Origin: Clostridiales bacterium
GTDB taxonomy: Bacteria; Bacillota; Clostridia; Saccharofermentanales; Saccharofermentanaceae
Direction: 5' to 3'
Assembly: GCA_024691135.1 (NCBI GenBank)
Contig: JAILNZ010000005.1
Coordinates: forward strand, 1 to 33,692
Length of the DNA: 33,692 bases
The position numbers and the translations under genes were made by a program. Under the pieces are notes generated by a model. The model searched no databases, was not told where the DNA came from, and saw only the letters and a list, made by a program, of their open reading frames with translations. Position 1 is the stretch's first letter. Each line of letters starts with the position of its first letter. Below are positions 18,490 to 33,692 of this stretch, one piece after another.

Positions 18490-20259
18490 TTACTGTTCAT
18501 TGTTCGTTTGCTGGAGGAGCGCCGCAAAAATGGTCTTGCCGATCTGGCCCGCGATGAACTCGCCGCGGTCGTAGATGTCAGTCGTCGCCTCGCAGACCAG
18601 GGAGCCGTAGATGTAGTTTCCGTGGAAGACAGGGAAGATGACGTAGCCGTTGCAGTCCCATGAGAGTTCATCACGAAGGAACATGTACTCGACGGGCGTG
18701 GTCCTTCTTTCTTTCGGGAGGATGTAAAGTTCACCGTTCTTGATCGAGCAGCGCAGGTCGATGGAGGTCGGGAAGTCGGATTCTTTCGGTATGCGGCCGC
18801 CCAGGAAGACGGGGTTCTCGTACATGTAGAAGGCGGCGTTCTTAAGGCCTAGTTTGTCGAATGAACGGAGGATACGCGGGATGTTGTCCTCTTCCTTGCC
18901 AGTAAAATCGACGCCGCTGATCATGAACTGGACCAGGTAATCGCGCGTTTTGTTGGAGCGCGTCAGCTCTTTGTGGAGCTGCGTTGATACGTAGCGGAGC
19001 GCGAGGTCCTTCATGTAGGAGAAGAGACGGTTGTTCATGACGTTTGCCGACGGCGACTTGACCATGACGTTCATGCTCGCCTGAAGACGGTCGATACTCT
19101 TGATGAGCTTGGTCGTATCCGTGTATTCCATGATCCCGTTCTCGAAAAAGATCTCGATCAGCAGCTTGAGTTCGTTGAACTCATCCAGGCTCATGTACTT
19201 GCGCTTCATGGCGACAAGCATCTTTGATGCGATCTCGAAAAAGAGACGCTTCAGGTTAATCTCTTTCTTGCTGATCTTCTCGTTCTTGTATCTGTAGAAG
19301 CAGTCATCGAACATCCTGTAGATGAAGGCAGAGTCGATGTTGCTCATCTCGAGGGTGGAGTATTCGTACATCTCGTAGCCGAAGGATTCGCGGCCGTAAA
19401 GACTTGTGGGGAGCAGGGCGGAAGAGACTTCCTTGCCGTCCAGAAGGTCGAGGATGAGTTCGAGTGCTTTCTGGCCGAGGATGTCTTTGGAGGCGCCGAT
19501 CGAAGACAGTGACGGCATCATCTCGCCTGCCATGAGAGTATTGTCAAAACCGAATACGAGGATGTCCTTGCCGGGGACCTTGCCGCGCTCTTCCATTGCC
19601 TGGTAAAGGCCCCTGGCTACGGCGTCGTTGACGCAGAAGACTGCCTGGCAATCGGGGTTTCTCTCGAGGAGCTCGTCGGCCTCGTCAAAGCAGTTGATCG
19701 ACATGTCGGTATCGATGTACTGGGATTCGCTGTATGGGATGTTGTGTTCGGCGAGGCAGGCTTTGAAGATCTTCTTGCGCTTCATCGCATCGCCGTTGTC
19801 GGGACGGCCGCCGAGCATGCATATGTTGGTCACGTTGTGGATGTTGATGAGGCAGTCCATCGCTTCCTTGATGCCCATCGCGTTGTCGTAGTTGACTGTG
19901 ATGAAGTTGTCGATCTCGGCTGCAACGATGACCTTGGGGATGTTCTCGAAGGTGGTTTGATATTTCTTCAGGAAAAGGTTCTCTTCGTGAGGATCGATAC
20001 TGCCGAGGGATATGATGAGCCCGTCGATCTCGCAGATCTCGGCGAGCTTGTAGATCGTGTTGTACATCTTCTTGTACGGGTAGTCGAAAGCCGTGGGAAT
20101 GTTCTCGTTTATGTACTTGCCTGCAAAGACCACGATCCGGATGTCCCTGTTGTCCGGGATCGCGTTGATCGCGCTGTGGATGATGTCTTTGGCGAAGTCG
20201 GAAAAGATATCGTCCACCAGGATCCCGACCGTGGTTTTCTTGTTGCTCTTGTCGATCAT
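18490..20259 (-). CDS. LacI-type periplasmic-binding-like (Peripla_BP_3) sensor protein lacking HTH and GGDEF, with GAF-like C-terminus
   Basis: VGILVDDIFSDFAKDIIHSAINA... and CQAVFCVNDAVARGLYQAMEERGKVPGKDILVFGFDNTLMA are the LacI/PBP fold. No HTH before residue 10 and no signal peptide. Start overlaps the FIST-EAL stop (ATGA). Confidence 0.75.
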   Translation of the reverse strand: MIDKSNKKTTVGILVDDIFSDFAKDIIHSAINAIPDNRDIRIVVFAGKYINENIPTAFDYPYKKMYNTIYKLAEICEIDGLIISLGSIDPHEENLFLKKYQTTFENIPKVIVAAEIDNFITVNYDNAMGIKEAMDCLINIHNVTNICMLGGRPDNGDAMKRKKIFKACLAEHNIPYSESQYIDTDMSINCFDEADELLERNPDCQAVFCVNDAVARGLYQAMEERGKVPGKDILVFGFDNTLMAGEMMPSLSSIGASKDILGQKALELILDLLDGKEVSSALLPTSLYGRESFGYEMYEYSTLEMSNIDSAFIYRMFDDCFYRYKNEKISKKEINLKRLFFEIASKMLVAMKRKYMSLDEFNELKLLIEIFFENGIMEYTDTTKLIKSIDRLQASMNVMVKSPSANVMNNRLFSYMKDLALRYVSTQLHKELTRSNKTRDYLVQFMISGVDFTGKEEDNIPRILRSFDKLGLKNAAFYMYENPVFLGGRIPKESDFPTSIDLRCSIKNGELYILPKERRTTPVEYMFLRDELSWDCNGYVIFPVFHGNYIYGSLVCEATTDIYDRGEFIAGQIGKTIFAALLQQTNNEQ

Positions 20260-22844
20260 AACATGTCCTCCGTGAATGGTTTGGGATTAGAGAAGAGGTA
20301 GCCCTGGGAATAATCTATGGAATAGCCGAGGAGAAGGTCCTGGATCTCCTTGTTCTCGACGAATTCGGCGACGATCTTGATGTCCTTCGAACTGATCCTT
20401 TTCCAGTCGGCGATGAGTGCGATGAGGTTCTCGGACTCTTTGCTGTTGCAGCAGTTGCGCACGATGGAGCCGTCGATCTTGAGATAGTCGGAATGGATGT
20501 TCGCGATGTGCTGCAGGTTGGAGTAGCCGCTTCCGAAATCGTCGATCGAGATCAGGCCGCCGAGGTCGTGGATCGTATCGACGAACTTGATGAGCGCGAT
20601 ATAGTCGTCGACATCTTCGTTTTCGAGGATCTCGAAGACAAAGTTCTCCGGATGGTCTGCGGTCCTCAGGAAGTCGTAGATGTATTCGACGAGCTTGCGG
20701 TTCTTGATGTCGCGCAGGCTCAGGTTGATGCTGACGCTCTTGCCTTCGACGTGACGGAAGGTGTTGAATACCTTGTGGATCATCATCGATGACATGTTGT
20801 CGTAAAGAAGCCCGAAGGTTCGTGCGACCTCGAGGAAGCTTCCGGGATAGTAGATGTTCCCGGCCTCGTCCTTGAGCCTCATCAGCGATTCGTAGTGGTG
20901 GATCGTCTTCTGCTCGTTGTCGTAGATGCCCTGGTAGTAAGGGATTATCTGGTCGTGCGCGATGGCGTAGTTTATGACGTTTACCATCCGGTAGTGCTCG
21001 CGGATCTTCTCCTCGTCAAGCCGGTTGTCCTCCGCGTCGCGCACGTAGAACTGGATGTTCCTCTGGCCCATCTCGACCCGGGCCGCGGAGTAGACGGAGT
21101 TTATGTTGTCGATGGTGCAGCCGTCCAGGATACAGAAGCCAGGAACGATCGCTATCGTCTCTTTGGAGTTCTCGAAAAGGATTTTCTGCAGCTCCTCCAT
21201 GTGCGTCACAAAAGTCCGGAGGGACACCATGTGCGACGGCGCGCCGACCGCAAAGAGCCATTCGTCGATAAGGTAGAGGCGGTAGTGCTTGCGCCTTGCA
21301 AAACCGACGCACTTGTTTATGAGGCTCGATCTCGTGATCTGCACTTCCTTTTTCGAAAAGACGGTTTTCATGTCGGATACGTTGAAGACGTTTATGTAGC
21401 AGATCCTGTCGTAGCCGCGCGTCTTGATGTCCAGGCTGAAGGCGGCTTCGTTCAGGACGTCGTCGGTGTCGGAATAGAGGAGCTTGAGCTCGCAGTCGCC
21501 GATACATTTGCGGAGGCTTTCCGCGCTGCTTCTGTTCTCCGTGTCCTCGAGCCTGCTGCCGATATCCATGAGGTAGTCCAGAAGTTCCAGGTTGTCTTCG
21601 GCGAGGGCGTCCGTCCTTGAGAAGGCGTAGGGATTATATTCCTGTGCCGTTTTCTCCTCGCCTGCGGCGGCGACGACAAAGGAGCAGTTGGCGAATGTGT
21701 TCCGGCCGTTGGAGTTCGTGATCTCGCCGACCGTGACGCAACCGCAGATGTTGGTGTTCTCGTAGGCCGACAGCTCCCACTTGACGCAGTTGGAGTAGAT
21801 GGTGGACCTGACGACGCAGGTGTAGCCGAAGAGGGTCTCGGCTTTTTCGAAGCTCTCGATGTCCTGGAAGAGTTTTCTGTTGTCGGCCAGGATCTTTCTG
21901 TCGTAGATGAAGGCGCGGGTGAGGCGTCTTCCGGAAGGAATGTTGCTGTTTGCGTAGATATATTCGCCTTTCTTACCGGTGTCGATGTCGGGCCTTTTCG
22001 AGAAGGCTTCCCTGTAGTAAGGATCTTCGGGAGGGAACAGTTCCGACAGGCTCTTTCCTTCGGCGTAATTGAGATAGACCGGTATGTCCGGCATCTCCTC
22101 GAAAACGTAAGGGAACAGGTTATGGAACTTGGAATCCGTGTCCGACACGACGAGCTTGTGGTTCTTGAGCGTGCTGACGCCGTCCATCTTGAGGATGCAG
22201 GGGCCCGCGCTGTCGGTGATCTCCTCGCTGTCGCCGACGACTTCGGCGCCCGTCGTGTATGACGTTATCGCTTCGAGGTCGTCGCCGCTTAACGCGGCCA
22301 GCATGAGGGCATCCTCATACCACCCGTTCTCATCGAAAAGGAAACCCTGATCTTCTTCCGGGGTGTTGGCGAGGCCGCCGATCATCTTGACTTCGGGGAA
22401 GTACGAATTGGTCCTGTCGACGAACTCCAGGATGTTCCTGAAGGATTGCGTCGAAAAAGTAAGGAGGAGCTTTGTGTTGGCGCGTATCAGCTCCTCATCG
22501 ATCTTCCTGCAGAGATCATCCGCAGGGACGGGGACGTTATCAGCATCAAGCGTCGGGCTGACGGCGGTCCTTACCGTTCCGCCCTGCATCTGAGATATGG
22601 AGATGACGCACTGGTTCTGCGAGAGCTTGCCGCTGTTGATCGTTGCGGAAGTGCTGGTTCCGAAGATCTTTACTTCGGGCATGGTGTCCTTGATAAAGCG
22701 CGCAAGGTCAACGGCTTCGTCCCTTTTGTGGATCGAAGTGTGGATCCTTATCAAAATGTCGCCGCTGTGAGCGGAAAGCATCAGCTGATTCAGAGTATCA
22801 GCGATCCTTGACTTCGACATATATTGAAAATTCCAAGTGAACAT
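20256..22844 (-). CDS. FIST-domain sensor fused to an EAL phosphodiesterase domain
   Basis: N-terminal FIST-like region (VKIFGTSTSATINSGKLSQNQCVISI). C-terminal EAL landmarks HYESLMRL, INLSLRDI, FEILENE, IDDFGSGYSNL, LKIDGSIV, VAEFVEN and YSQGYLFSNP. Confidence 0.85.
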   Translation of the reverse strand: MFTWNFQYMSKSRIADTLNQLMLSAHSGDILIRIHTSIHKRDEAVDLARFIKDTMPEVKIFGTSTSATINSGKLSQNQCVISISQMQGGTVRTAVSPTLDADNVPVPADDLCRKIDEELIRANTKLLLTFSTQSFRNILEFVDRTNSYFPEVKMIGGLANTPEEDQGFLFDENGWYEDALMLAALSGDDLEAITSYTTGAEVVGDSEEITDSAGPCILKMDGVSTLKNHKLVVSDTDSKFHNLFPYVFEEMPDIPVYLNYAEGKSLSELFPPEDPYYREAFSKRPDIDTGKKGEYIYANSNIPSGRRLTRAFIYDRKILADNRKLFQDIESFEKAETLFGYTCVVRSTIYSNCVKWELSAYENTNICGCVTVGEITNSNGRNTFANCSFVVAAAGEEKTAQEYNPYAFSRTDALAEDNLELLDYLMDIGSRLEDTENRSSAESLRKCIGDCELKLLYSDTDDVLNEAAFSLDIKTRGYDRICYINVFNVSDMKTVFSKKEVQITRSSLINKCVGFARRKHYRLYLIDEWLFAVGAPSHMVSLRTFVTHMEELQKILFENSKETIAIVPGFCILDGCTIDNINSVYSAARVEMGQRNIQFYVRDAEDNRLDEEKIREHYRMVNVINYAIAHDQIIPYYQGIYDNEQKTIHHYESLMRLKDEAGNIYYPGSFLEVARTFGLLYDNMSSMMIHKVFNTFRHVEGKSVSINLSLRDIKNRKLVEYIYDFLRTADHPENFVFEILENEDVDDYIALIKFVDTIHDLGGLISIDDFGSGYSNLQHIANIHSDYLKIDGSIVRNCCNSKESENLIALIADWKRISSKDIKIVAEFVENKEIQDLLLGYSIDYSQGYLFSNPKPFTEDML

Positions 22845-22865
22845 ACCGTGGTCCTCGCAAACTGA

Positions 22866-22892
22866 CGAAAAAAGGACTTCCCCAAGTCCTTT
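22866..22892 (-). terminator. Minus-strand terminator-like hairpin between PBP-GGDEF and FIST-EAL
   Basis: Minus strand: AAAGGACTT-GGGG-AAGTCCTTTTTTCG, 9-bp perfect stem plus U-run. Confidence 0.8.
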
Positions 22893-22925
22893 CCGCCTAA
22901 AGATTTATATGTTCATTACCCTTAG

Positions 22926-22934
22926 ATTATATCA
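22926..22934 (-). promoter_or_regulatory. Extended -10 element upstream of FIST-EAL
   Basis: Minus strand TGATATAAT (TG-N-TATAAT). Confidence 0.45.
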
Positions 22935-22980
22935 CAAATATTATTTAGAATCTTTGTTCTTTTTGAACGCTTTATTAATC

Positions 22981-24816
22981 TTACCTGTGCTTTTTGGTCC
23001 TCTTCTCGACGTACATGATCTTGTCAGCCTTGTTCATGGATTCCATGAGAGTGCTCCAGTCGCTGACTTCGCATGTACCGATGCTCGCGCTCAGAGTGTA
23101 GTTCAGCTTTTTGTTGGCTTCCTTGATCGCGTTCCTGAACGACCTTATGAACTGGCCGATCCTGCCCGGGTTATCGAGGAACAGAACGGCCTCGAACTCG
23201 TCGCCGCCCATCCTGGCCACGAACTCGTTCCTGTTGATCGATTTCTGGAGGCACTTGCCGATCATGATGATCGCCTCATCGCCCGCGGAGTGACCGAAGT
23301 TGTCGTTGATCGACTTCAGGTCGTCCATGTCGATGCTCGCGACGGCGAGCTTCGTGCCGTCGCCTTCCTTCTTTTTGTCGAGGATGTTCGAGAGATATTT
23401 CTCGAAGCCTCTCCTGTTATAAAGGCCCGTGAGCGCGTCCCTTATATAGAGGTCCATGACGTCGCTTACTTCAAAGAGCTTATTGTAGAGGCGGAGACGG
23501 TTGAGCGACTGGCCGAGAAGAAGGAGCATGAACTCGAGCCTCTCGTCAAAGAAACGCTTGATCTTGCTGTCCATCTCCAGGACGGCATAACCGTAAACTT
23601 CGTTCTTAAAATGTATAGGCAGATAGATCCTTACGCCCGAAAAATCAGCGTTGTATTTTTTCGGGAGGAGGTCAGTCATAGGGAAGGAGATGTCACATGC
23701 CTTCTTGTCCTTTGTGTCGAACATTCCGACGAGGGAGCGGTCGTTCTCGCCGTACATACAGATGAAGCCCTTCTTGAAGATCTTCAGGGCCATGATGCTC
23801 TGCAATGTCAGGAGCACGCAGTCGTCCTTGGACATTACGTCCTGATAATCGGAACTGAGCCTTACGAAGGCGAGAGTCTGGTCAAAGTATGTCTTCTGTA
23901 TGAGATCGAATTCGTGATAGGCGGCAGTCAGGTCCCTCTCAGTCGTTCCGCCGGTGCTCTCCCTGATAAAGAGCCTGCCCGGGACGGTCATATAGAAATC
24001 GACCTCTTTTCCCTCCTTGATATCCTCGAGACATTTGATCGCCTTATCGACAAGACCGTCTTCCGGGATGTCCGATGTCGTGAGGGAAGGGATGTGGTTA
24101 AGAGCCGGCGGGAGATTGTCGACGCCCGTGACCATGACATCCTGAGGGATCTTATATCCCCTGTCCATGAGTTCGTCGATAAGTCCCAGGGCCATATAAT
24201 CGTTGGAACAGATGACAGCTTCGGGAAGCGTTCCGTCCTTGCGGATAAAGAAGTCTGCCGTGGCAGGACCCTGGTCGATCCAGTAGTTGCCGTGGAATAT
24301 CATGTCTTCGCTCACGGTGTAGCCCGCTTCGTGCATCGCGTCCTCAAAGCCCGCGCGTCTTTCCTTCGAGTCGACGAGGTCGTCACGGCCGGCGACGAAG
24401 CCGATGTCGCCGTTCTTAGTGACGGAGAGGACATGCTTCGTGATGTCATACATGATGAGCCTGTTGTCCGGGACGATGTTATAGAATCCTTCCTCGTCGC
24501 ATCTGATGCTGATCACGGGAGGGATGTCGGAAGCCGACATGAGATTATCGAGGAGCTCTTTGTTGAGACCTGCGTGATGCAAAGTGTCGGAACAGAGGAT
24601 TATTCCGTCATATTCATGAAGCGGCGGGATGTTAAGGATACTCTTCAATCCTTCGGCGTGAAGCGGATTGTCGCTCGATACGGCACAGTTACCGAAAATG
24701 TCCACACGGTGTCCGTTCTTGACGGCACGCTCCATGAGGCTTCTGATAACAGCCGACGAATAGTCGCGATACATATCTCCGATAAAAGCACATATTCTCA
24801 TAGGCAGATACCTCAC
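22981..24816 (-). CDS. Cytosolic PBP-like (LacI-type ligand domain) sensor diguanylate cyclase with GGDEF domain
   Basis: N-terminal ligand-binding fold (ICSNDYMALGLIDELMDRGYKIPQDVMVTGVDN), GAF-like middle, DALTGLYNRRGFEKYL and intact ARMGGDEFEAVL. No signal peptide. Confidence 0.88.
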   Translation of the reverse strand: MRYLPMRICAFIGDMYRDYSSAVIRSLMERAVKNGHRVDIFGNCAVSSDNPLHAEGLKSILNIPPLHEYDGIILCSDTLHHAGLNKELLDNLMSASDIPPVISIRCDEEGFYNIVPDNRLIMYDITKHVLSVTKNGDIGFVAGRDDLVDSKERRAGFEDAMHEAGYTVSEDMIFHGNYWIDQGPATADFFIRKDGTLPEAVICSNDYMALGLIDELMDRGYKIPQDVMVTGVDNLPPALNHIPSLTTSDIPEDGLVDKAIKCLEDIKEGKEVDFYMTVPGRLFIRESTGGTTERDLTAAYHEFDLIQKTYFDQTLAFVRLSSDYQDVMSKDDCVLLTLQSIMALKIFKKGFICMYGENDRSLVGMFDTKDKKACDISFPMTDLLPKKYNADFSGVRIYLPIHFKNEVYGYAVLEMDSKIKRFFDERLEFMLLLLGQSLNRLRLYNKLFEVSDVMDLYIRDALTGLYNRRGFEKYLSNILDKKKEGDGTKLAVASIDMDDLKSINDNFGHSAGDEAIIMIGKCLQKSINRNEFVARMGGDEFEAVLFLDNPGRIGQFIRSFRNAIKEANKKLNYTLSASIGTCEVSDWSTLMESMNKADKIMYVEKRTKKHR

Positions 24817-24912
24817 TATCAGTCAATTATAACGGATTTTTGACGGTTTTTAAAGAAGATGCGGTCTTCGTAATACCTTTTCGGGAAGCTTGGTGATATA
24901 ATTTTTCAGTAT

Positions 24913-24988
24913 GGGGGCGTAGCTCACCTGGGAGAGCGTTGCATTCGCATTGCAGAGGTAGTGGGTTCAAGTCCCATCGTCTCCACCA
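24913..24988 (+). tRNA. tRNA-Ala (anticodon CGC), CCA encoded
   Basis: Cloverleaf read by eye: acceptor GGGGGCG/CGTCTCC, D-arm TAGCTCACCTGGGAGAGC, anticodon arm TTGCA-TTCGCAT-TGCAG, T-arm GTGGG-TTCAAGT-CCCAT, then ACCA. Confidence 0.93.
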
Positions 24989-25065
24989 GATTGCCTGATG
25001 GTACCCTTGTTTTTCGAAAAAAGGATACGGAAAACGGGGGTACGTCAGTTTATGGAGGAAATGAT

Positions 25066-25791
25066 ATGAAGATAGGGATAAGGGTAGCGGCATTACTGAT
25101 GTCGGCAGCGGTCCTGGTTTCAGTCTGTTCATGTGAAAGTAAGAAGGACAGAAGAGTAAAGGATAAGGGTTCGAAGGACCGTATTGAGGAGACAAAGGGA
25201 GATAAGGAAGATATAAAGGAAAAGAGAGAGAGTTTTTCCGGCAATACGATGGGCTCATTATTTCAGCTCATGGATGATGCCACGGGCAAGGATAAGTTTA
25301 CGGCCGTTCAGATGATCGAAGACTACTTCGGTACGGAGCTTGCAGATCCCGTCGAGTTCCAGGAGGAGTGGTTCGGACTTAAGTTAAATACCGAATTTTA
25401 TTATACCCGGCTCTATACGGGGGAATACCGTTTCCTTGAAGTATCGGTGGGTGTCGATCCCGATACCGATGTTGTAAGAAGGATCAGCTTTTACTGCAGC
25501 AACGACGACTTCTTCACATCGTCGTTTGACGATCTTAAGGGTTTTGATGACGAAGTCAGATCTCTTGTCGAAGCAGCTGACAGCGAGCTTGAAGATGTGT
25601 GCGGAGAACCGTTCGAGACGGGTGATCTGGTAGCAGATGAGGATTCGTTCTACCATCTGTACAAATATGGCAATGATTGTGAGATAAGGGTCGAATACTA
25701 CGATTATACCGAAGAAGGCGGAAACGGGCTTCTGGCCGTAGAACTGTTCTTCACGGACAATTCCGTTCCGGGCGAAGCGACACCGGAGTAA
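25066..25791 (+). CDS. Putative lipoprotein of unknown function
   Basis: MKIGIRVAALLMSAAVLVSVCSCESKK with lipobox-like VCSC and a highly charged linker. RBS ATGGAGGAA. The ORF-track start at 24961 lies inside the tRNA. Confidence 0.75.
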   Translation: MKIGIRVAALLMSAAVLVSVCSCESKKDRRVKDKGSKDRIEETKGDKEDIKEKRESFSGNTMGSLFQLMDDATGKDKFTAVQMIEDYFGTELADPVEFQEEWFGLKLNTEFYYTRLYTGEYRFLEVSVGVDPDTDVVRRISFYCSNDDFFTSSFDDLKGFDDEVRSLVEAADSELEDVCGEPFETGDLVADEDSFYHLYKYGNDCEIRVEYYDYTEEGGNGLLAVELFFTDNSVPGEATPE

Positions 25792-25804: not shown

Positions 25805-26950
25805 ATGTCGGAATTACTGATCAGGCTGTTTGTCAAAGACCCGTCGCAAAGGCATAAGTACGGGCTTTTGGCGGGCGTTGTGGGCATCATCTGTAATGTC
25901 ATACTCGCTTCGACCAAGATCGTGCTCGGGCTTGTTACGGGCGCGGTATCGATCGTGACGGATGCGGTCAATAATCTTTCCGACGCGGTTTCTTCCGTGG
26001 TGACCCTTGTCGGGTTCAAGATATCCGGCAAGCCTGCCGACAGGGAACATCCGTACGGTCACGGAAGAGTCGAATACATAACGGGATTTGTAGTATCCGC
26101 TGCGGTCATTGCAGTTGCGATAGAACTTTTCAAGGAATCAGTATCGAATATCATCCATCCGGAAGAACTGGACGTAAGTATAGTTACGATCGTCTTTCTG
26201 GCGCTTACCATCGTGATCAAGCTGTGGATGTCGGTCTTCTACGGCAAGATCGCAAAGAAGATCTCGTCGGAGGCGATGAGGGCGACCGCGACGGATTCCA
26301 GGGCCGACTGCATAACGACGGGCGTAGCTCTCATCTCGGTCCTCATAATGCTCATTTCCGGAATCAATATTGACGGTTATGCGGGAGCGCTGGTCGCGAT
26401 CCTGGTAGTGATCTCGGGTGTCCGTTCGGCCAAGGAGACGATAGCGCCGATCCTGGGAGAAGCTCCCGACAAGGAGTTCCTCGCGGAGCTCGAGAAGGAG
26501 GTCAGATCCAATGAAGGCATCCTCGGGGTTCACGACATAAGGATCCACGAGTACGGACACAGCACGAAGATCGTGTCACTCCATGTCGAGATGCCGGACG
26601 ATGTCCCGCTCGTCAAGGTCCATGACGTCATCGATATCATAGAGAAAGATCTGGTATCGAAGGGCTTTGCCTCGGAAGTCACGATCCATGTCGATCCGGT
26701 AGCGACGGACGATCAGGAGATGCTAGGCGTCAGGTCCTGTCTGGAGGGATATCTTAAGACCGTTAACGGAAAGATAAGTATCCACGATTTCAGACTGATA
26801 AGGGAGACGGACTGTAAAAGGCTCATCTTTGAGATCCTCGTGCCTTATGACGACAAGCATTCCGACAGCGAGCTTAAGGGCCTTATAGAAGGGCATCTGA
26901 AGGAGACGGGGAAGGATTATGACATCTCGGTCACGGTCGACCGCGAATGA
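25805..26950 (+). CDS. Cation diffusion facilitator (CDF) family transporter
   Basis: TDAVNNLSDAVSSVVTLVGFKISGKPADREHPYGHGRVEYITG and TATDSRADCITT are CDF motifs; cytoplasmic C-terminal domain present. Confidence 0.93.
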   Translation: MSELLIRLFVKDPSQRHKYGLLAGVVGIICNVILASTKIVLGLVTGAVSIVTDAVNNLSDAVSSVVTLVGFKISGKPADREHPYGHGRVEYITGFVVSAAVIAVAIELFKESVSNIIHPEELDVSIVTIVFLALTIVIKLWMSVFYGKIAKKISSEAMRATATDSRADCITTGVALISVLIMLISGINIDGYAGALVAILVVISGVRSAKETIAPILGEAPDKEFLAELEKEVRSNEGILGVHDIRIHEYGHSTKIVSLHVEMPDDVPLVKVHDVIDIIEKDLVSKGFASEVTIHVDPVATDDQEMLGVRSCLEGYLKTVNGKISIHDFRLIRETDCKRLIFEILVPYDDKHSDSELKGLIEGHLKETGKDYDISVTVDRE

Positions 26951-27065
26951 TCATCTTTAACATTTCTTTATGATTTCTGTATGACATCTTAGGATTATCG
27001 AGATGATTGTTTAACATCGAGGAAGTAATCTTTGATCATAAACAACTTACTGATCAACGGAGGGC

Positions 27066-28058
27066 ATGAAAAACATGGCAAAACAACTTACTAACCAGAG
27101 GAAATGGAGACCTTGGAAGGGTATAATACTTTTCTTCGTTGCAGCCGCCATAATACTCGGCGGATCACTTCTTACTGTAAAGCTCGGAACGCTGTTGGGA
27201 ATGATCGTCTTACAGGGAACGCTCCTTTTGACAGCAATCATTTGCTGCTTCATAAACAGGACTCCTGTGAAGGAAGTTTTTCCTCTTAAGGGGATAACCG
27301 TAAGGGATTTCTTCGGAACGGCCATGATGTGGGCAGGCGGACTTATGTTCGGAATGATGTCCGTATACGTTACCGCCATCTTATTCCCGAACGTCTATGA
27401 AGCAGTCATAGATTCCATGCAGACCATCACATCGGGACCATGGATCGCATCTTTGATCATTACCGTCGTCCTTCCCCCTATCTGTGAGGAAGCGATCGTC
27501 AGGGGCGCGATCCTTAGCAACTTCAGAAGCCTTAAGAGAGACTGGGTCATCATCCTTATCGTAGGACTTATGTTCGGTGCTCTTCACATGGATCCGATCA
27601 GGTTCATCAACACGGCGATCCTCGGAGGCATCTCGGCCTACCTTATCGTCAAGAGGGATAACTTCGTCCTTGCATGGCTCGTCCACTTCCTCAATAACGG
27701 ATTCGCGTACTTAATGTCAACGCTCAGTGATCTCGGCGGGGATGATGCGGCCGAAGCGGCAAAAGAGGCGGCAGCTGCCATTGAGACTTCGAAGGGCCAG
27801 ACACTCGCGTCCCTCATGGTATTCTTCTGCATCGCACCGATCCTTCTGGTCATCGGATCACATCTCATAAAGAGACAAAGAGAGATCTCGGAAGGTCTCG
27901 AGCCTTCGGGCATGAGGCTCGGATTTAAGATCCTCATCGCAGGGGTCATCGCGTTCATACTCTTCAGCGTCGGCATCGGTTACACGGTCATGAACATGCC
28001 TGACATGGAAAAGATAAAAGAAGCTGCAGGCGCGGTCACGTTCCTCGCAGCACGCTGA
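27066..28058 (+). CDS. CPBP (CAAX/Abi-type) intramembrane metalloprotease
   Basis: CEEAIVRGAILSNFR (EExxxR), FGALHMDPIRFI and WLVHFLNN motifs within multiple TM segments. Confidence 0.88.
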   Translation: MKNMAKQLTNQRKWRPWKGIILFFVAAAIILGGSLLTVKLGTLLGMIVLQGTLLLTAIICCFINRTPVKEVFPLKGITVRDFFGTAMMWAGGLMFGMMSVYVTAILFPNVYEAVIDSMQTITSGPWIASLIITVVLPPICEEAIVRGAILSNFRSLKRDWVIILIVGLMFGALHMDPIRFINTAILGGISAYLIVKRDNFVLAWLVHFLNNGFAYLMSTLSDLGGDDAAEAAKEAAAAIETSKGQTLASLMVFFCIAPILLVIGSHLIKRQREISEGLEPSGMRLGFKILIAGVIAFILFSVGIGYTVMNMPDMEKIKEAAGAVTFLAAR

Positions 28059-28283: not shown

Positions 28284-28874
28284 ATGGTCAGATACATATT
28301 GATGATGTACATAACACTTGTTCCGGCGATCCTTGCGGGCATCGTTGTCATGATATGGTGTAAACTTCCGGTCCTGAAGGCGCTCTCGAAGCCGGTCGAC
28401 TTCGGAAGAAACTTCGCGGACGGCAAGAGGATATTCGGTGACAACAAGACCTGGAAGGGTATTTTGGGATACGTTCTGTTCAATATGATTTTTTCCGTTC
28501 TCTGGGGCCTGGTCCTCGGAAACGGCACTTTAAGAGACCTCGACTTTTTCTATCAGCAGCATGACAACACGTTTTTATATAACCTTCTGACCGGATTTCT
28601 TCTGGGGCTGGGCTATTCGCTCTTCGAGCTTCCCAACAGTTTCCTCAAAAGAAGGATCGACGTAACTCCCGGCAAGACCAAGAAAGGTTTTTGGAAGGTG
28701 TTTTTCGTGTGTCTGGATCAGGCGGATTCCGTATTCGGCGTCGCACTTGTGGTATGGCTGTTCTACCCTCTGGGGATCGGCTTATACCTGCTCTACGTCC
28801 TGGTCGGTTCATTGACACATCTGTTCCTCAACATGATGCTGTACTTCATGAGGCTGCGTAAAAATATGTTTTAA
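28284..28874 (+). CDS. CDP-archaeol synthase (CarS)-like / CTP:lipid cytidylyltransferase family membrane protein
   Basis: ADGKRIFGDNKTWKGILGYVLFN, ELPNSFLKRRIDVTPGKT and DQADSVFG match the CarS/CDP-diglyceride synthase-like signature. Confidence 0.75.
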   Translation: MVRYILMMYITLVPAILAGIVVMIWCKLPVLKALSKPVDFGRNFADGKRIFGDNKTWKGILGYVLFNMIFSVLWGLVLGNGTLRDLDFFYQQHDNTFLYNLLTGFLLGLGYSLFELPNSFLKRRIDVTPGKTKKGFWKVFFVCLDQADSVFGVALVVWLFYPLGIGLYLLYVLVGSLTHLFLNMMLYFMRLRKNMF

Positions 28875-28885
28875 GGGGTAGGACG

Positions 28886-31387
28886 ATGATAGTCAGATTT
28901 GACGGCAGGGAAGACGGAAATGAGAAACTGGGGAATAAGGGCAGATTCCTGCTTGAGATGAGAAGGTGCGGCATCAACGTACCTGACGGCTTCGTGCTCG
29001 ACAGCGACGTCTATGACAAGACGGTCGCGCCCGTAAAAAGCGGCATCAAAGAGATCCTCATGACGCTTACGAAGGATAACATAAGGGAAGTGTCGGAAAA
29101 GATATCGGCACTTCTTGACGGCGTGTCTTTGGACAAAGAGATAACGGATGAGATCAACTCCCTCACTTCGGATGATAAGCTCTACGCGGTAAGGAGCAGC
29201 GGCATCAAGGAAGACCTGGACGAGGCTTCTTTCGCGGGGCAGTATGATACTTTTCTTAACACACCGCGCGAAAACATACCGCAGAAGATAACAGAGTGCT
29301 ATAAGTCCATGTTCGGTGAGGTTATATTGAGCTATCTGATCGACAGGACGATCGATATCGAAGACCTTAAGATGGCAGTTGTCGTTCAGGAGATGGTCGA
29401 TTCCGACTTAAGCGGCATCTGTTTTACGACAGATCCCGTGACGGGCAGGGACAAGATAATGCTCATCGAAGTATCCGAGGGATTAGGCGAGAACATAGTA
29501 AGCGGAAAGACGGTCCCCGACAGATATCACTACGACTGGTATGAGAAAAGGGAAGTCGGAAGGGACCCCCGAAACAAGCTCCTCACAGAAGAGCAGGTGA
29601 AAGATCTGGCGGAAAATTTCTCTTCGATCCAGCAGCATTTCGGCTATCCGTGCGACATCGAGTTCGCCTTGAAGGACAACGTACTTTATATCCTCCAGTC
29701 GAGAAAGATAACGAAGATAAGCTATACGGGCATAGACGACATGTGGACGACGGCCGACTTCAAGGACGGCGGCGTCTCGGCGACTGTCTGCACACCGTAC
29801 ATGTGGAGTCTCTATGAATATATCTGGGAATATTCCTTAAGAAAGTTCATCGTCGATTCGAAGATCTTAAGAGACGACGAGCTCCCCAAAAAACTCGGCG
29901 AGATGTATTACGGCCGATGCTACTGGAACATGTCCGCGGTCAAGAAGACGATGAGCAGGATCGTGGGATATAAGGAGAGGGAATTCGATAACGAATACGG
30001 CATAGCAGGAAACTACGAAGGCGACGGGGAAGTTACTTCGCCGACACCGAAGGTCCTGTTCCGCATGATCCCGATCATCATAAAGCAGAAGGCGCTCCTG
30101 GACGACAGGAAGAAGAATTCGGAAAAGTATAAAAACGAGCTTCTCGATCTTTATTACGGTTATAAGGACCGGCTCGACAACGGTAAGATCAGAAGCATTG
30201 AAGAGGACTTCGTGAAGATCACGAAGGAAACATACCTGAGGAGCGAGACGACTTATTTCTGGCAGATATTCATCAACACGATCCACCAGTCGCTCTATAA
30301 AGAGAGCCTTCTTAAATACGTGAGCGAGAGCGAGTATCTGTCGCTCCTCGGAAGCATCGACAACATCTCCCACCTCCTGCCGTTCTACGACATGTGGGAT
30401 ATCACGAGGGAGATAAGAAAAGATCAAAAAGCAAAGAATTTCTGGGAGGAAAATGACCCGGAAACGATCGCGAAGGAACTTAGAAGCGAAGGCTTTTTCA
30501 TGCCGAAGGTAAATAAGCTCATCGAAGATTACGGATATCATTCCGACAAGGAACTCGACATCACTTATCCGTGCTACTACGAGGAGCCGGAAGTCCTGAT
30601 CGCGATGGTAAAGGACATGGTCCTTCTGGACGATTCGTTCTCGCCCGTCGAAGACAAGGAAAGAGGCACAAAGGTCTATAAGGACATCCTCGATGGCATC
30701 TCGAAAAGGGTATCAAAATCGAAGTATAAAAAGATCTCCTCCAAGGTCAAGAACATGCGCAAGATGCTCTGGTGGAGAGAAGAATTCAGGGACGTATCCA
30801 CAAGGTTCTACTACATGCTCAGGATGTACACCGTAAAGTACGCCCAAAAGCTCGAAAAAGACGGAGTGCTGGGATCCCGGGAAGATGTCTGGTTCCTGAA
30901 GGTCGGCGACCTCTGGGACTATACCGAAAACAAAAAGACAGGCGAAGACTTAAGAGATCTGATAGAGAAAAACAGATTCTACTATAACGCATTCAGGAAC
31001 TATATAAGCGACAACGAGATAGGTCACGACATAAAGAAAACTGACGAGGGAAAAACGGGAGATACGATAAGGGGACTCGGAGCAAATAACGGCAAGGTCA
31101 CGGCAACCGCGAGAGTCATCGAAGACTTTACGAAGATCGACAGGCTTCAAAAAGGCGACATACTCGTAACGAGATTTACGGATACGGGATGGACACCGAA
31201 GTTCGCGATACTGTCGGGAATCGTAACCGAGTACGGCGGTATACTCTGTCACGCCGCGATCGTGTCAAGGGAATACGGAATCCCCGCGATAGTATGCTGC
31301 AAGGATGCGATGAGCAGGATAAAGGACGGTCAGATCATAACGATAGACGGGTCTGACGGAACGGTAACGATACCGGACGGTGAATGA
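28886..31387 (+). CDS. PEP synthase / rifampin-phosphotransferase-like dikinase (PPDK_N ATP-grasp plus phosphohistidine domain, no TIM barrel)
   Basis: KLGNKGRFLLEMRRCGINVPDGFVL, YAVRSSGIKEDLDEASFAGQYDTFLN, DPVTGRDKIMLIEVSEGLGE, ILQSRKIT; C-terminal GGILCHAAIVSREYGIPAIV phosphohistidine swivel domain ends the protein. Confidence 0.85.
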   Translation: MIVRFDGREDGNEKLGNKGRFLLEMRRCGINVPDGFVLDSDVYDKTVAPVKSGIKEILMTLTKDNIREVSEKISALLDGVSLDKEITDEINSLTSDDKLYAVRSSGIKEDLDEASFAGQYDTFLNTPRENIPQKITECYKSMFGEVILSYLIDRTIDIEDLKMAVVVQEMVDSDLSGICFTTDPVTGRDKIMLIEVSEGLGENIVSGKTVPDRYHYDWYEKREVGRDPRNKLLTEEQVKDLAENFSSIQQHFGYPCDIEFALKDNVLYILQSRKITKISYTGIDDMWTTADFKDGGVSATVCTPYMWSLYEYIWEYSLRKFIVDSKILRDDELPKKLGEMYYGRCYWNMSAVKKTMSRIVGYKEREFDNEYGIAGNYEGDGEVTSPTPKVLFRMIPIIIKQKALLDDRKKNSEKYKNELLDLYYGYKDRLDNGKIRSIEEDFVKITKETYLRSETTYFWQIFINTIHQSLYKESLLKYVSESEYLSLLGSIDNISHLLPFYDMWDITREIRKDQKAKNFWEENDPETIAKELRSEGFFMPKVNKLIEDYGYHSDKELDITYPCYYEEPEVLIAMVKDMVLLDDSFSPVEDKERGTKVYKDILDGISKRVSKSKYKKISSKVKNMRKMLWWREEFRDVSTRFYYMLRMYTVKYAQKLEKDGVLGSREDVWFLKVGDLWDYTENKKTGEDLRDLIEKNRFYYNAFRNYISDNEIGHDIKKTDEGKTGDTIRGLGANNGKVTATARVIEDFTKIDRLQKGDILVTRFTDTGWTPKFAILSGIVTEYGGILCHAAIVSREYGIPAIVCCKDAMSRIKDGQIITIDGSDGTVTIPDGE

Positions 31388-31388
31388 T

Positions 31389-32000
31389 ATGTTTATAGGC
31401 AAATGGAACAAGTCGGTCATATTGACATACATCGGGGCGATGTTCGCGGTAGCGGGAATCTTCCTCGCGTTTTCCGCGGACAAGATCACATATTCATACT
31501 GCTGTCTGATGATGGCGGGTATCTGTGATCTCTTTGACGGAATGGTCGCAAGAAGATGCAAGAGGACCGACGAGGAGAAGAGGTTCGGGATCGAACTTGA
31601 TTCGCTCGTTGATGTCATCAGTTTTATAGCTCTTCCGGTATGCATCTTTATCGCCATGGGACTTAAGCGCATATGGGATCTTCCGATCTTCATGCTGTTT
31701 TCGATATGCGGTGTCGCAAGGCTCGGATACTTTAACATCGCGACTGCCGACAGCGAGAAGGCGGTAAAGTTCTATACGGGTCTTCCGGTCACTTTCTCGG
31801 CACTGATCTTCCCACTTATCTATCTTCTCAAGGTGCCGCTTCCGAAGGGCATCTTCAAGTATGTCTTTGAAGGCGTGACAGTATTAGTCTCGATCCTTCA
31901 GATCCTTAAGATAAAGATCCCCAAGCCGAAGGGGATCTGGTACGGGATATTGGGACTTCTCGCGGCCGTCATGCTCACGGTCTATCTGGTCTTTTTGTGA
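31389..32000 (+). CDS. pssA: CDP-alcohol phosphatidyltransferase, phosphatidylserine synthase type
   Basis: CDP-OH-P motif DGMVARRCKRTDEEKRFGIELDSLVD plus CGVARLGYFN typical of PssA. ATG 1 bp after the upstream stop. Confidence 0.85.
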   Translation: MFIGKWNKSVILTYIGAMFAVAGIFLAFSADKITYSYCCLMMAGICDLFDGMVARRCKRTDEEKRFGIELDSLVDVISFIALPVCIFIAMGLKRIWDLPIFMLFSICGVARLGYFNIATADSEKAVKFYTGLPVTFSALIFPLIYLLKVPLPKGIFKYVFEGVTVLVSILQILKIKIPKPKGIWYGILGLLAAVMLTVYLVFL

Positions 32001-32008
32001 GGGATGAT

Positions 32009-32866
32009 ATGAAGGTCTACGACAGACAGAAAAAAGAATATGAGACCTCTGATCAGTACGGTCAGGAGAAGCTTAGATTCCTCTATGAAAATGCTATCGG
32101 AAGACTGCTCCTTCGGCTCGCCGTGTCGCACTTTGTATCAGGGATCTATGGCAGTATCAATTCTCGAAAAAGCTCCGCTAAAAAGATACCCGGTTTTATC
32201 GAAAAGCATCATATCGACATGAGCGATTTTGAAGAGGAAAAATACGGAAGCTTCAATGAGTTTTTCGTAAGGAAGATAAGGCCGGAGAAAAGACCGTTCA
32301 GCATGAGAAAAGATGTCTTTATATCACCCGCGGATTCAAAGCTTCTCATGTACGGGATAGACGAAGATACGAAGCTTTTTATCAAGGGCAGGGAATATAC
32401 GCTCGACGAGATAACGGGAGGGACTTATACAGAAGGGTTTAAGGGCGGACATGCATTTGTCTTCAGGCTGTGCATGGACGATTATCACAGATACTGTTTT
32501 ATCGATGACGGGAAGGTCGTATCGGAAAAAAGGATAAAGGGAAGACTTCACACGGTAAGTTCCTTTTCGAGAGACCATAAGATCTATAAGGAGAACACGA
32601 GACAGGTAAGCGTCCTTAAGACGGAGAACTTCGGCATGGTCATCATGATAGAAGTCGGTGCGCTCCTGGTGGGAAAGATAGTTGATCATGACATCAAGGA
32701 GTTTAAGAAGGGGCAGGAGAAGGGTTACTTTGAGCCCGGCGGATCGACTGTTATAATCATTACCGGAGATAATATCGAAGTTGATGAAGACATTATGGAA
32801 CAAAGTTCAGCCGGGATAGAGACCAAGGTCAGATACGGCGAGAGGATAGGGACATCAAGATGCTGA
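32009..32866 (+). CDS. psd: Phosphatidylserine decarboxylase proenzyme
   Basis: FNEFFVRKIRPEKRPF, ISPADSKLLMYG, HRYCFIDDGKV, and GGST maturation motif FEPGGSTVIII. Confidence 0.88.
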   Translation: MKVYDRQKKEYETSDQYGQEKLRFLYENAIGRLLLRLAVSHFVSGIYGSINSRKSSAKKIPGFIEKHHIDMSDFEEEKYGSFNEFFVRKIRPEKRPFSMRKDVFISPADSKLLMYGIDEDTKLFIKGREYTLDEITGGTYTEGFKGGHAFVFRLCMDDYHRYCFIDDGKVVSEKRIKGRLHTVSSFSRDHKIYKENTRQVSVLKTENFGMVIMIEVGALLVGKIVDHDIKEFKKGQEKGYFEPGGSTVIIITGDNIEVDEDIMEQSSAGIETKVRYGERIGTSRC

Positions 32867-33692
32867 AACGACTTCATATCTACTTCAAGGAACGTTATCC
32901 GATCATACCGAGACTTATACTCGGCATCATCGTTTTTCTCGAGATACATTTCATAATCCTTCTGAACCTGGGAGTTACGAAGGATCAGTTCAGGATCGGC
33001 ATTCAGGAATCCGTCGGTGCGTGGACGGTCTTCGCATTCCTTTTGTGGCTCAGGATCGCGGACGATCTCAAGGATTTTGAGACGGACAAGAGGCTGTTTC
33101 CGGACAGGCCCCTGCCGAGCGGAAGAGTATTCAAAAAAGATGTCATGGTCGCCTGCGTAGTAGTTCAGATCATAACGGTCGTCCTGAACGTCATCTTCAT
33201 GAGAAAATGCATCATCTTCTTCGTGATCTTATATATCTACGGATACCTGATGAGCAAGTGGTTCTTCAAGAAAAAGAAGATACAGCCGAGCCTTCCTCTG
33301 GCGCTCGTGACGCATAATCCGGTTCAGGCATTCATCAACCTCTACATCATCTCATTTACGGTCATAAAATACGACCTGCCGTTCTTTACGCTGACGAACA
33401 TCATGGCGCTCTGGACACTCTATTTTCCGGCTCTCATATGGGAGGTCTCAAGAAAGATCAAGGCGCCGAAGGACGAGAATGATTACACGACATACAGCAA
33501 GCTCTTCGGCTACAAGAAGGCGACACGTTTTGTACTCATACTTACGATCGCCGATATCATCACGAACTTTATCCTCGTTTGGAACCTGAACAAGATCTCG
33601 GTTTTGGTCCTGGCACTCCTCGTGTCATGGATGACGTGGAAGTTCATCCGGTTCATGAAGGACCCGGAAAAGTTCACGCTCGTAAACAAGGT
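32860..33692 (+). CDS. UbiA-family prenyltransferase (truncated by window end)
   Basis: Not in the ORF track because it has no stop in the window. Translation MLKRLHIYFKERYPIIPRLIL...LRIADDLKDFETDKRLFPDRPLPSGRV...EVSRKIKAPKDENDYTTYSKLFGYKKA: two Asp-rich UbiA motifs. Overlaps the psd stop by 7 bp. Confidence 0.82.
   Translation, partial: MLKRLHIYFKERYPIIPRLILGIIVFLEIHFIILLNLGVTKDQFRIGIQESVGAWTVFAFLLWLRIADDLKDFETDKRLFPDRPLPSGRVFKKDVMVACVVVQIITVVLNVIFMRKCIIFFVILYIYGYLMSKWFFKKKKIQPSLPLALVTHNPVQAFINLYIISFTVIKYDLPFFTLTNIMALWTLYFPALIWEVSRKIKAPKDENDYTTYSKLFGYKKATRFVLILTIADIITNFILVWNLNKISVLVLALLVSWMTWKFIRFMKDPEKFTLVNK

Follow-up and report, generated by a model that had tools for sequence, protein, structure and literature searches.

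A conserved operon of rumen and gut clostridia that combines archaeal-like lipid enzyme classes with acyl chemistry and may make an unusual ethanolamine phospholipid

INTRODUCTION

CarS- and UbiA-type steps are usually treated as markers of archaeal membranes. The archaeal phospholipid pathway comprises GGGPS, DGGGPS, CarS, ASS and ASD, and the clostridial operon described here resembles it in uniting a CarS-like enzyme, a UbiA-fold enzyme, a serine CDP-alcohol transferase and a serine decarboxylase. Unlike the archaeal set, it adds two dikinases, a GNAT and an acyl-AMP ligase, its UbiA has a changed motif 3, and it resides in a bacterium with its own CdsA and in hosts in which we detected no GGGPS or extra prenyl synthase. 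The putative archaeal-lipid genes of "Candidatus Cloacimonetes" and FCB bacteria likewise comprise a bacterial lipid locus with a UbiA-superfamily gene; these bacteria have homologues of GGGPS and DGGGPS and no CarS (PMC7852524), whereas the clostridial operon has a CarS-like gene and UbiA but no GGGPS.

Two bacterial pathways share other parts of the operon. As in the synthesis of PE by CdsA, PssA and Psd, the operon encodes a Pss and a Psd with intact active-site motifs, that of Psd being GGST. It departs from this pathway in having a CarS-like protein in place of CdsA, a Psd set apart by a well-supported branch, and UbiA, dikinases, GNAT and ligase in the same operon. As in the rhodobacterial ceramide gene set (spt, acpR, aasR, epi and aca/yghO), an acyltransferase of the YghO kind adjoins an acyl-AMP ligase; unlike that set, the operon lacks acpR, its carriers in the family studied here lack SPT, and the acyl enzymes are joined to CDP-alcohol enzymes and UbiA. 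Finally, the dikinases share with those of the rifampin phosphotransferase type an N-terminal ATP-grasp domain, a middle domain and a C-terminal swivel-histidine domain, with no PEP-barrel domain by Pfam, but have a divergent middle domain and occur as two paralogues in a lipid operon.

Our search of open-licence papers found no account of an operon of this kind, whether in Clostridia, in Butyrivibrio or in Saccharibacteria. A conserved gut and rumen operon encodes a lipid route that matches no described pathway we found. We put at about even chances the reading that, as its enzyme classes predict, the operon forms an ethanolamine phospholipid by a CDP-alcohol route of its own, on an anchor other than plain diacylglycerol and with prenyl and acyl addition. 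Because the operon mixes CarS- and UbiA-type steps with acyl chemistry, the presence of these markers is not by itself sufficient evidence of archaeal lipids in a bacterium.

RESULTS AND DISCUSSION

The window ends inside an eight-gene operon

The window, the whole stretch of DNA that we analyzed, is contig C124, 33,692 bases of a 1.97-Mb draft genome that is 75% complete. Five open reading frames on the + strand lie at its end, where a sequence-only reading had placed them, and the five enzyme classes named there are borne out by Pfam scores well over the cut-offs. The first gene (28284..28874, +) encodes a putative CarS-like CTP:lipid-phosphate cytidylyltransferase of 196 aa (PF01864, 69.8 bits against a cut-off of 22). 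It is followed by Dik1 (28886..31387, +; 833 aa), an ATP-dependent dikinase of the rifampin-phosphotransferase/PEP-synthase kind (PPDK_N, 203 bits; PEP-utilizers, 87 bits), and by Pss (31389..32000, +), a serine-type CDP-alcohol phosphatidyltransferase of 203 aa counted from the conserved ATG at 31389 (PF01066, CDP-OH_P_transf, 52.7 bits), for which an in-frame GTG at 31380 is an alternative start. Psd (32009..32866, +) is a phosphatidylserine-type decarboxylase of 285 aa from the conserved ATG at 32009, with an alternative GTG at 31997 (PF02666, PS_Dcarbxylase, 163.4 bits). The last gene (32860..33690, +) encodes the first 277 residues of a UbiA-superfamily prenyltransferase, probably of subfamily PRK13592/NF010118 (PF01040, 43.8 bits against a cut-off of 34.2); its reading frame is still open at 33690 because the contig, exactly 33,692 bases long, stops inside the gene. 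Counted from the conserved ATG starts, the genes are 11, 1 and 8 bp apart, and Psd and UbiA overlap by 7 bp; of the earlier figures only the first, given as 12 bp, needed correction. A promoter and terminator scan gave nothing above chance.

The five genes begin an eight-gene operon, which in relatives runs CarS-like, Dik1, Pss, Psd, UbiA, Dik2, a GNAT acyltransferase and an acyl-AMP ligase (ACS). A strong CarS match (E below 1e-12) was present in 41 of 115 genomes of the window's family, and each of the 20 loci that we extended in other family genomes had the order CarS, Dik1, Pss, Psd, UbiA, which places the grouping far beyond chance and answers the earlier call for a check of neighborhood conservation in favor of a conserved order. 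Wherever the stretch downstream of UbiA was long enough, it contained Dik2 and the GNAT, a protein of about 355 aa, and mostly also the AMP-ligase of about 486 aa. In the window's own genome, contig C122 carries the C-terminal part of UbiA followed by Dik2, GNAT and ligase; it overlaps the window end by 337 bp with 96.7% DNA identity and 111 identical residues. We infer that C122 and C124 are one locus, and the combination of 96.7% DNA identity with full protein identity suggests that the assembly break is probably due to strain variation.

Gene order was also nearly constant across 80 loci from named genomes. Among the 55 fully flanked loci, CarS was present in 55, Dik1 in 54, Pss in 44, Psd in 53, UbiA (the search anchor) in 55, Dik2 in 55, GNAT in 55 and ACS in 51. 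The pairwise distances of the eight proteins were correlated (r 0.59 to 0.92, uncorrected for the species tree), as expected of co-inherited genes. None of the eight proteins had a match in a PADLOC scan, which gives no sign of an anti-phage system.

Some loci vary from this plan. In L075 (16413-17429), L077, L078 and L053, the YghO-like GNAT and the ligase are separated by an extra protein of about 340 aa, which in L075 is a double GNAT by Pfam. L138 and L155 are variant loci with a divergent CarS (40 to 41%) and no recognizable Dik1. In Butyrivibrio sp. INlla14 (L134:6767-8581), Dik1 has 604 aa compared with about 835 elsewhere, by either truncation or sequencing error.

The CarS-like enzyme is present alongside CdsA

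The sole match of the CarS-like profile in the PDB was archaeal CarS (5GUF, E 4.7e-8), which makes archaeal CarS its nearest relative and agrees with the earlier assignment of the protein as CarS-like. It scored 78.1 bits against the CDP-archaeol synthase equivalog NF003114, under the cut-off of 148, and is therefore CarS-like rather than the archaeal equivalog. Its DQ.DS motif was kept in 67 of 67 loci. The search for a separate cdsA that had been proposed located a canonical CdsA of the window genome on contig C60, next to open reading frames that we take to be uppS-, dxr- and rseP-like. CdsA was found in 14 of the 15 carriers searched, the exception being a 79%-complete genome.

Both dikinases of the operon were best matched by 5hv1, 5hv2 and 5fbs, with 5hv2, 5fbs and 5hv1 the best PDB matches of Dik1; these entries, deposited as PEP synthase, are rifampin phosphotransferases. 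Dik1 has the ATP-grasp domain, middle domain and C-terminal swivel histidine of RPH-type dikinases, and its swivel histidine H789 and ATP-grasp residues are invariant. Since Dik2 conserves the swivel histidine and the ATP-grasp residues as well, both enzymes should transfer phosphate.

UbiA and the lack of GGGPS argue against an archaeal diether

The truncated window copy of UbiA scored 384.7 bits against NF010118, with a curated cut-off of 443, and its full-length relatives scored 410 to 448 bits. It had no other NCBIfam match at E<1e-10, and the concern that it might group with quinone or heme enzymes was not borne out, as it matches no such family. By sequence, the UbiA profile had no meaningful match in the PDB, and the best matches of the UbiA structure model (pLDDT 83) were the DGGGPS structures 6m31 and 7bpu (TM 0.61 to 0.64, 15% identity). 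DGGGP synthase is characterized by N62 and D66xxxD70 in motif 1 and by D180, D183 and D187 in motif 3 (PMC9385802). By hand alignment, the operon UbiA keeps motif 1, with D72 and D76 invariant and D68 at the place of N62. Two of the three motif-3 aspartates are lost in the same alignment, K199, A202 and E206 standing at the positions of D180, D183 and D187 and being invariant in 24 sequences. The motif E[VI][SA]RK..AP..E was found in 77 of 77 loci. Without the two aspartates, the enzyme may not use prenyl diphosphate in the usual way.

These features bear on the idea that the operon makes an archaeal-type isoprenoid ether lipid with an ethanolamine head, in which UbiA would be DGGGP synthase and the CarS-like protein CDP-archaeol synthase. 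The affinity of the latter to archaeal CarS, the nearness of Pss to archaetidylserine synthase models and that of the UbiA model to DGGGPS structures speak for such a lipid; the altered motif 3 speaks against it, and the GNAT, the ligase and two dikinases would be left without a role. The accompanying genes that the sequence-only reading had suggested looking for were also missing. A search for GGGPS/PcrB with PF01884 over the 115 family genomes gave no credible match, only matches of at most 60 residues at the profile end, none scoring more than 22.4 bits; two of them exceed the cut-off with their neighbors (G099 and G105), and these are genomes of genus g5 without a strong CarS match. The family genomes contained one full-length PF00348 polyprenyl synthase each, operon or not, and carriers had no extra prenyl synthase by this profile. 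Genomes listed with two PF00348 proteins had partial matches, mostly at contig ends, and the synthase was not found in 11 genomes, including the incomplete window genome. The absence of GGGPS together with a single polyprenyl synthase makes an archaeal GGPP-based diether unlikely as the product, and we give the ether lipid as a whole only a small chance of being correct. Of the earlier proposal, the dedicated lipid operon with archaeal-like enzyme classes is supported, by its classes and conserved order, and the archaeal-type isoprenoid backbone is not.

The acyl enzymes point to acylation rather than sphingolipid synthesis

Dik2, GNAT and the acyl-AMP ligase, which lie beyond the window, point to an acylation step. 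No Pfam family matched the GNAT over the cut-off, and its profile gave no meaningful match in a PDB sequence search. Its structure model is a tandem GNAT fold, and hhalign detected remote homology to YghO over most of the protein (97.6%, E 3.3e-12, 308 columns, 19% identity). Both yghO and CC_1154 encode N-acyltransferases that act in ceramide synthesis (PMC9386255). This homology, and the pairing of the GNAT with an acyl-AMP ligase as in the rhodobacterial ceramide genes (PMC9386255), would fit synthesis of a sphingolipid or of ceramide phosphoethanolamine, in which the GNAT would serve as ceramide synthase and the ligase would provide the acyl donor. Such a pathway is disfavored because carriers in the window's family lack an SPT-type enzyme: TIGR01825 at E<=1e-40, covering SPT/KBL-type enzymes, was absent from all of them, and the two family genomes that have it, G044 and G047, lack the operon and a strong CarS match. 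We regard a sphingolipid product as very improbable.

Pss and Psd seem to be the replaceable part of the operon

The best NCBIfam matches of Pss were archaetidylserine synthase and PssA, both under the cut-off. Its CDP-alcohol motif DGxxAR..G...D...D is intact in 59 of 60 loci, and the self-cleavage site GGST of Psd was found in 72 of 72 loci by the (L/G)GST criterion. In a Psd tree, a branch with full support lies between 16 housekeeping Psd proteins and those of the operon. The orphan Psd genes of L177, L178 and L179, which have no adjacent Pss and belong to genus g5 genomes without a strong CarS match, fall on the operon side of this tree and are possible operon remnants.

The window genome has a second Pss-Psd pair on contig C72, and this pair together with the separate CdsA makes the earlier description of the operon as a dedicated second PE branch right for this genome. 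The description fails for many relatives, in which the operon Psd is the only one found; at least 18 carriers with a completeness of 90% or more are of this kind (G002, G009, G013, G021, G023, G036, G037, G052, G056, G057, G064, G067, G069, G071, G081, G082, G084 and G091). Conversely, some operons lack Pss and/or Psd. For each of the four Pss-less operons that we checked (L108, L111, L123 and L131), the genome encodes a housekeeping-type Pss at another site, which adjoins a Psd in three of the four, and L078, which lacks Psd in the operon, has one elsewhere in its genome. In L065, L156 and L157, the Pss-Psd pair stands at the 3' end of the operon. Their frequent loss or move, with housekeeping copies elsewhere, suggests that Pss and Psd are the replaceable part, and by gene content the operon core is CarS-Dik1-UbiA-Dik2-GNAT.

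Because Pss and Psd can be absent or moved, their role may be no more than to provide ordinary PE for a core pathway that makes something else. The main rival to a dedicated CDP-alcohol pathway holds that the CarS-like protein, Pss and Psd make ordinary diacyl PE as a donor or membrane partner, and that Dik1, UbiA, Dik2, GNAT and ligase make a different product, such as a carrier with a prenyl linkage or an envelope modification drawing on PE. The sole operon Psd of the carriers named above, the operons without Pss and/or Psd and the 3' Pss-Psd pairs all favor this explanation. It fits less well with the retention of CarS in all fully flanked loci although nearly all carriers searched have CdsA, and archaeal CarS discriminates against phosphatidic acid (PMC9385802). 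We consider PE supply a possible but somewhat doubtful role.

The operon, its conservation, its intact catalytic motifs and the separate CdsA in nearly all carriers searched are established. For the CDP-alcohol pathway, each step is assigned from enzyme class. A dikinase would use ATP to phosphorylate a hydroxyl of a hydrophobic anchor, and the CarS-like enzyme would react the product with CTP to a CDP-lipid that differs from the product of CdsA. Pss would then replace CMP by serine, and Psd would decarboxylate the serine headgroup to ethanolamine. UbiA would add a polyprenyl chain to the anchor or an intermediate; farnesyl or undecaprenyl donors are likely because carriers have one polyprenyl synthase. 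Acyl-AMP ligase and GNAT would acylate an amine, on either the anchor or the ethanolamine head. Counting against this pathway are the frequent absence or move of Pss and Psd, which seem replaceable by housekeeping copies, the loss of two motif-3 aspartates in UbiA, and the absence of ACS in some loci. We tentatively suggest, as a possibility, that the product represents a new bacterial membrane lipid class, an N-acylated phosphoethanolamine lipid that bears a prenyl group, with a dikinase-phosphorylated anchor and CarS-type CDP activation parallel to CdsA, encoded by a mobile module of rumen and gut clostridia and Saccharibacteria.

Host range and neighboring genes

In an evenly drawn class-level search of 388 genomes, the UbiA subfamily was found in 7, of which three belong to the window's own genus and one to each of four other families; the operon was present in all four of the latter, one of them being L065 with its 3' Pss-Psd pair. 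The named kin of the window genome are Saccharofermentans and other rumen clostridia. Named genomes yielded 250 relatives in a scan, and the 80 that we retained included carriers among Saccharofermentans, Ruminococcus-labelled MAGs and Lachnospiraceae, the last with Butyrivibrio sp. INlla14 and XPD2006. Some of the Butyrivibrio and Lachnospiraceae carriers are recorded as isolates and not MAGs, which makes the operon product directly searchable; isolate carriers are Butyrivibrio sp. XPD2006 and INlla14, Lachnospiraceae P6A3 and AC2028, and Ruminococcaceae YRB3002. Two further carriers are MAGs labelled "Candidatus Saccharibacteria" (L152 and L154, in G492 of 0.9 Mb and G493 of 1.1 Mb), in which the upstream open reading frames are, by our reading by eye, LemA-like and TPM-domain-like; the operon Pss is the sole PF01066 protein found in G492. 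The placement in Saccharibacteria is apparent, and a binning error is possible. The patchy presence of the operon suggests horizontal transfer.

The operon also occurs on a contig labelled Fibrobacter succinogenes (RUG12208, L087), with a UbiA 82% identical to that of the window, by either cross-phylum transfer or a mislabelled or chimeric MAG.

Directly upstream of the operon, the window carries a CDF-type cation transporter gene and a CAAX-protease-like (Rce1) gene (25805-28058, +), and a CDF gene also lies 5' of the operon in L047, L017, L025, L082 and L083. Further upstream are two open reading frames of 668 and 276 aa (22837-24843, + and 24961-25791, +) with no Pfam match at E<1e-5, and a gene for an 862-aa protein (20256-22844, -) in which a FIST sensor domain is fused to an EAL phosphodiesterase domain.
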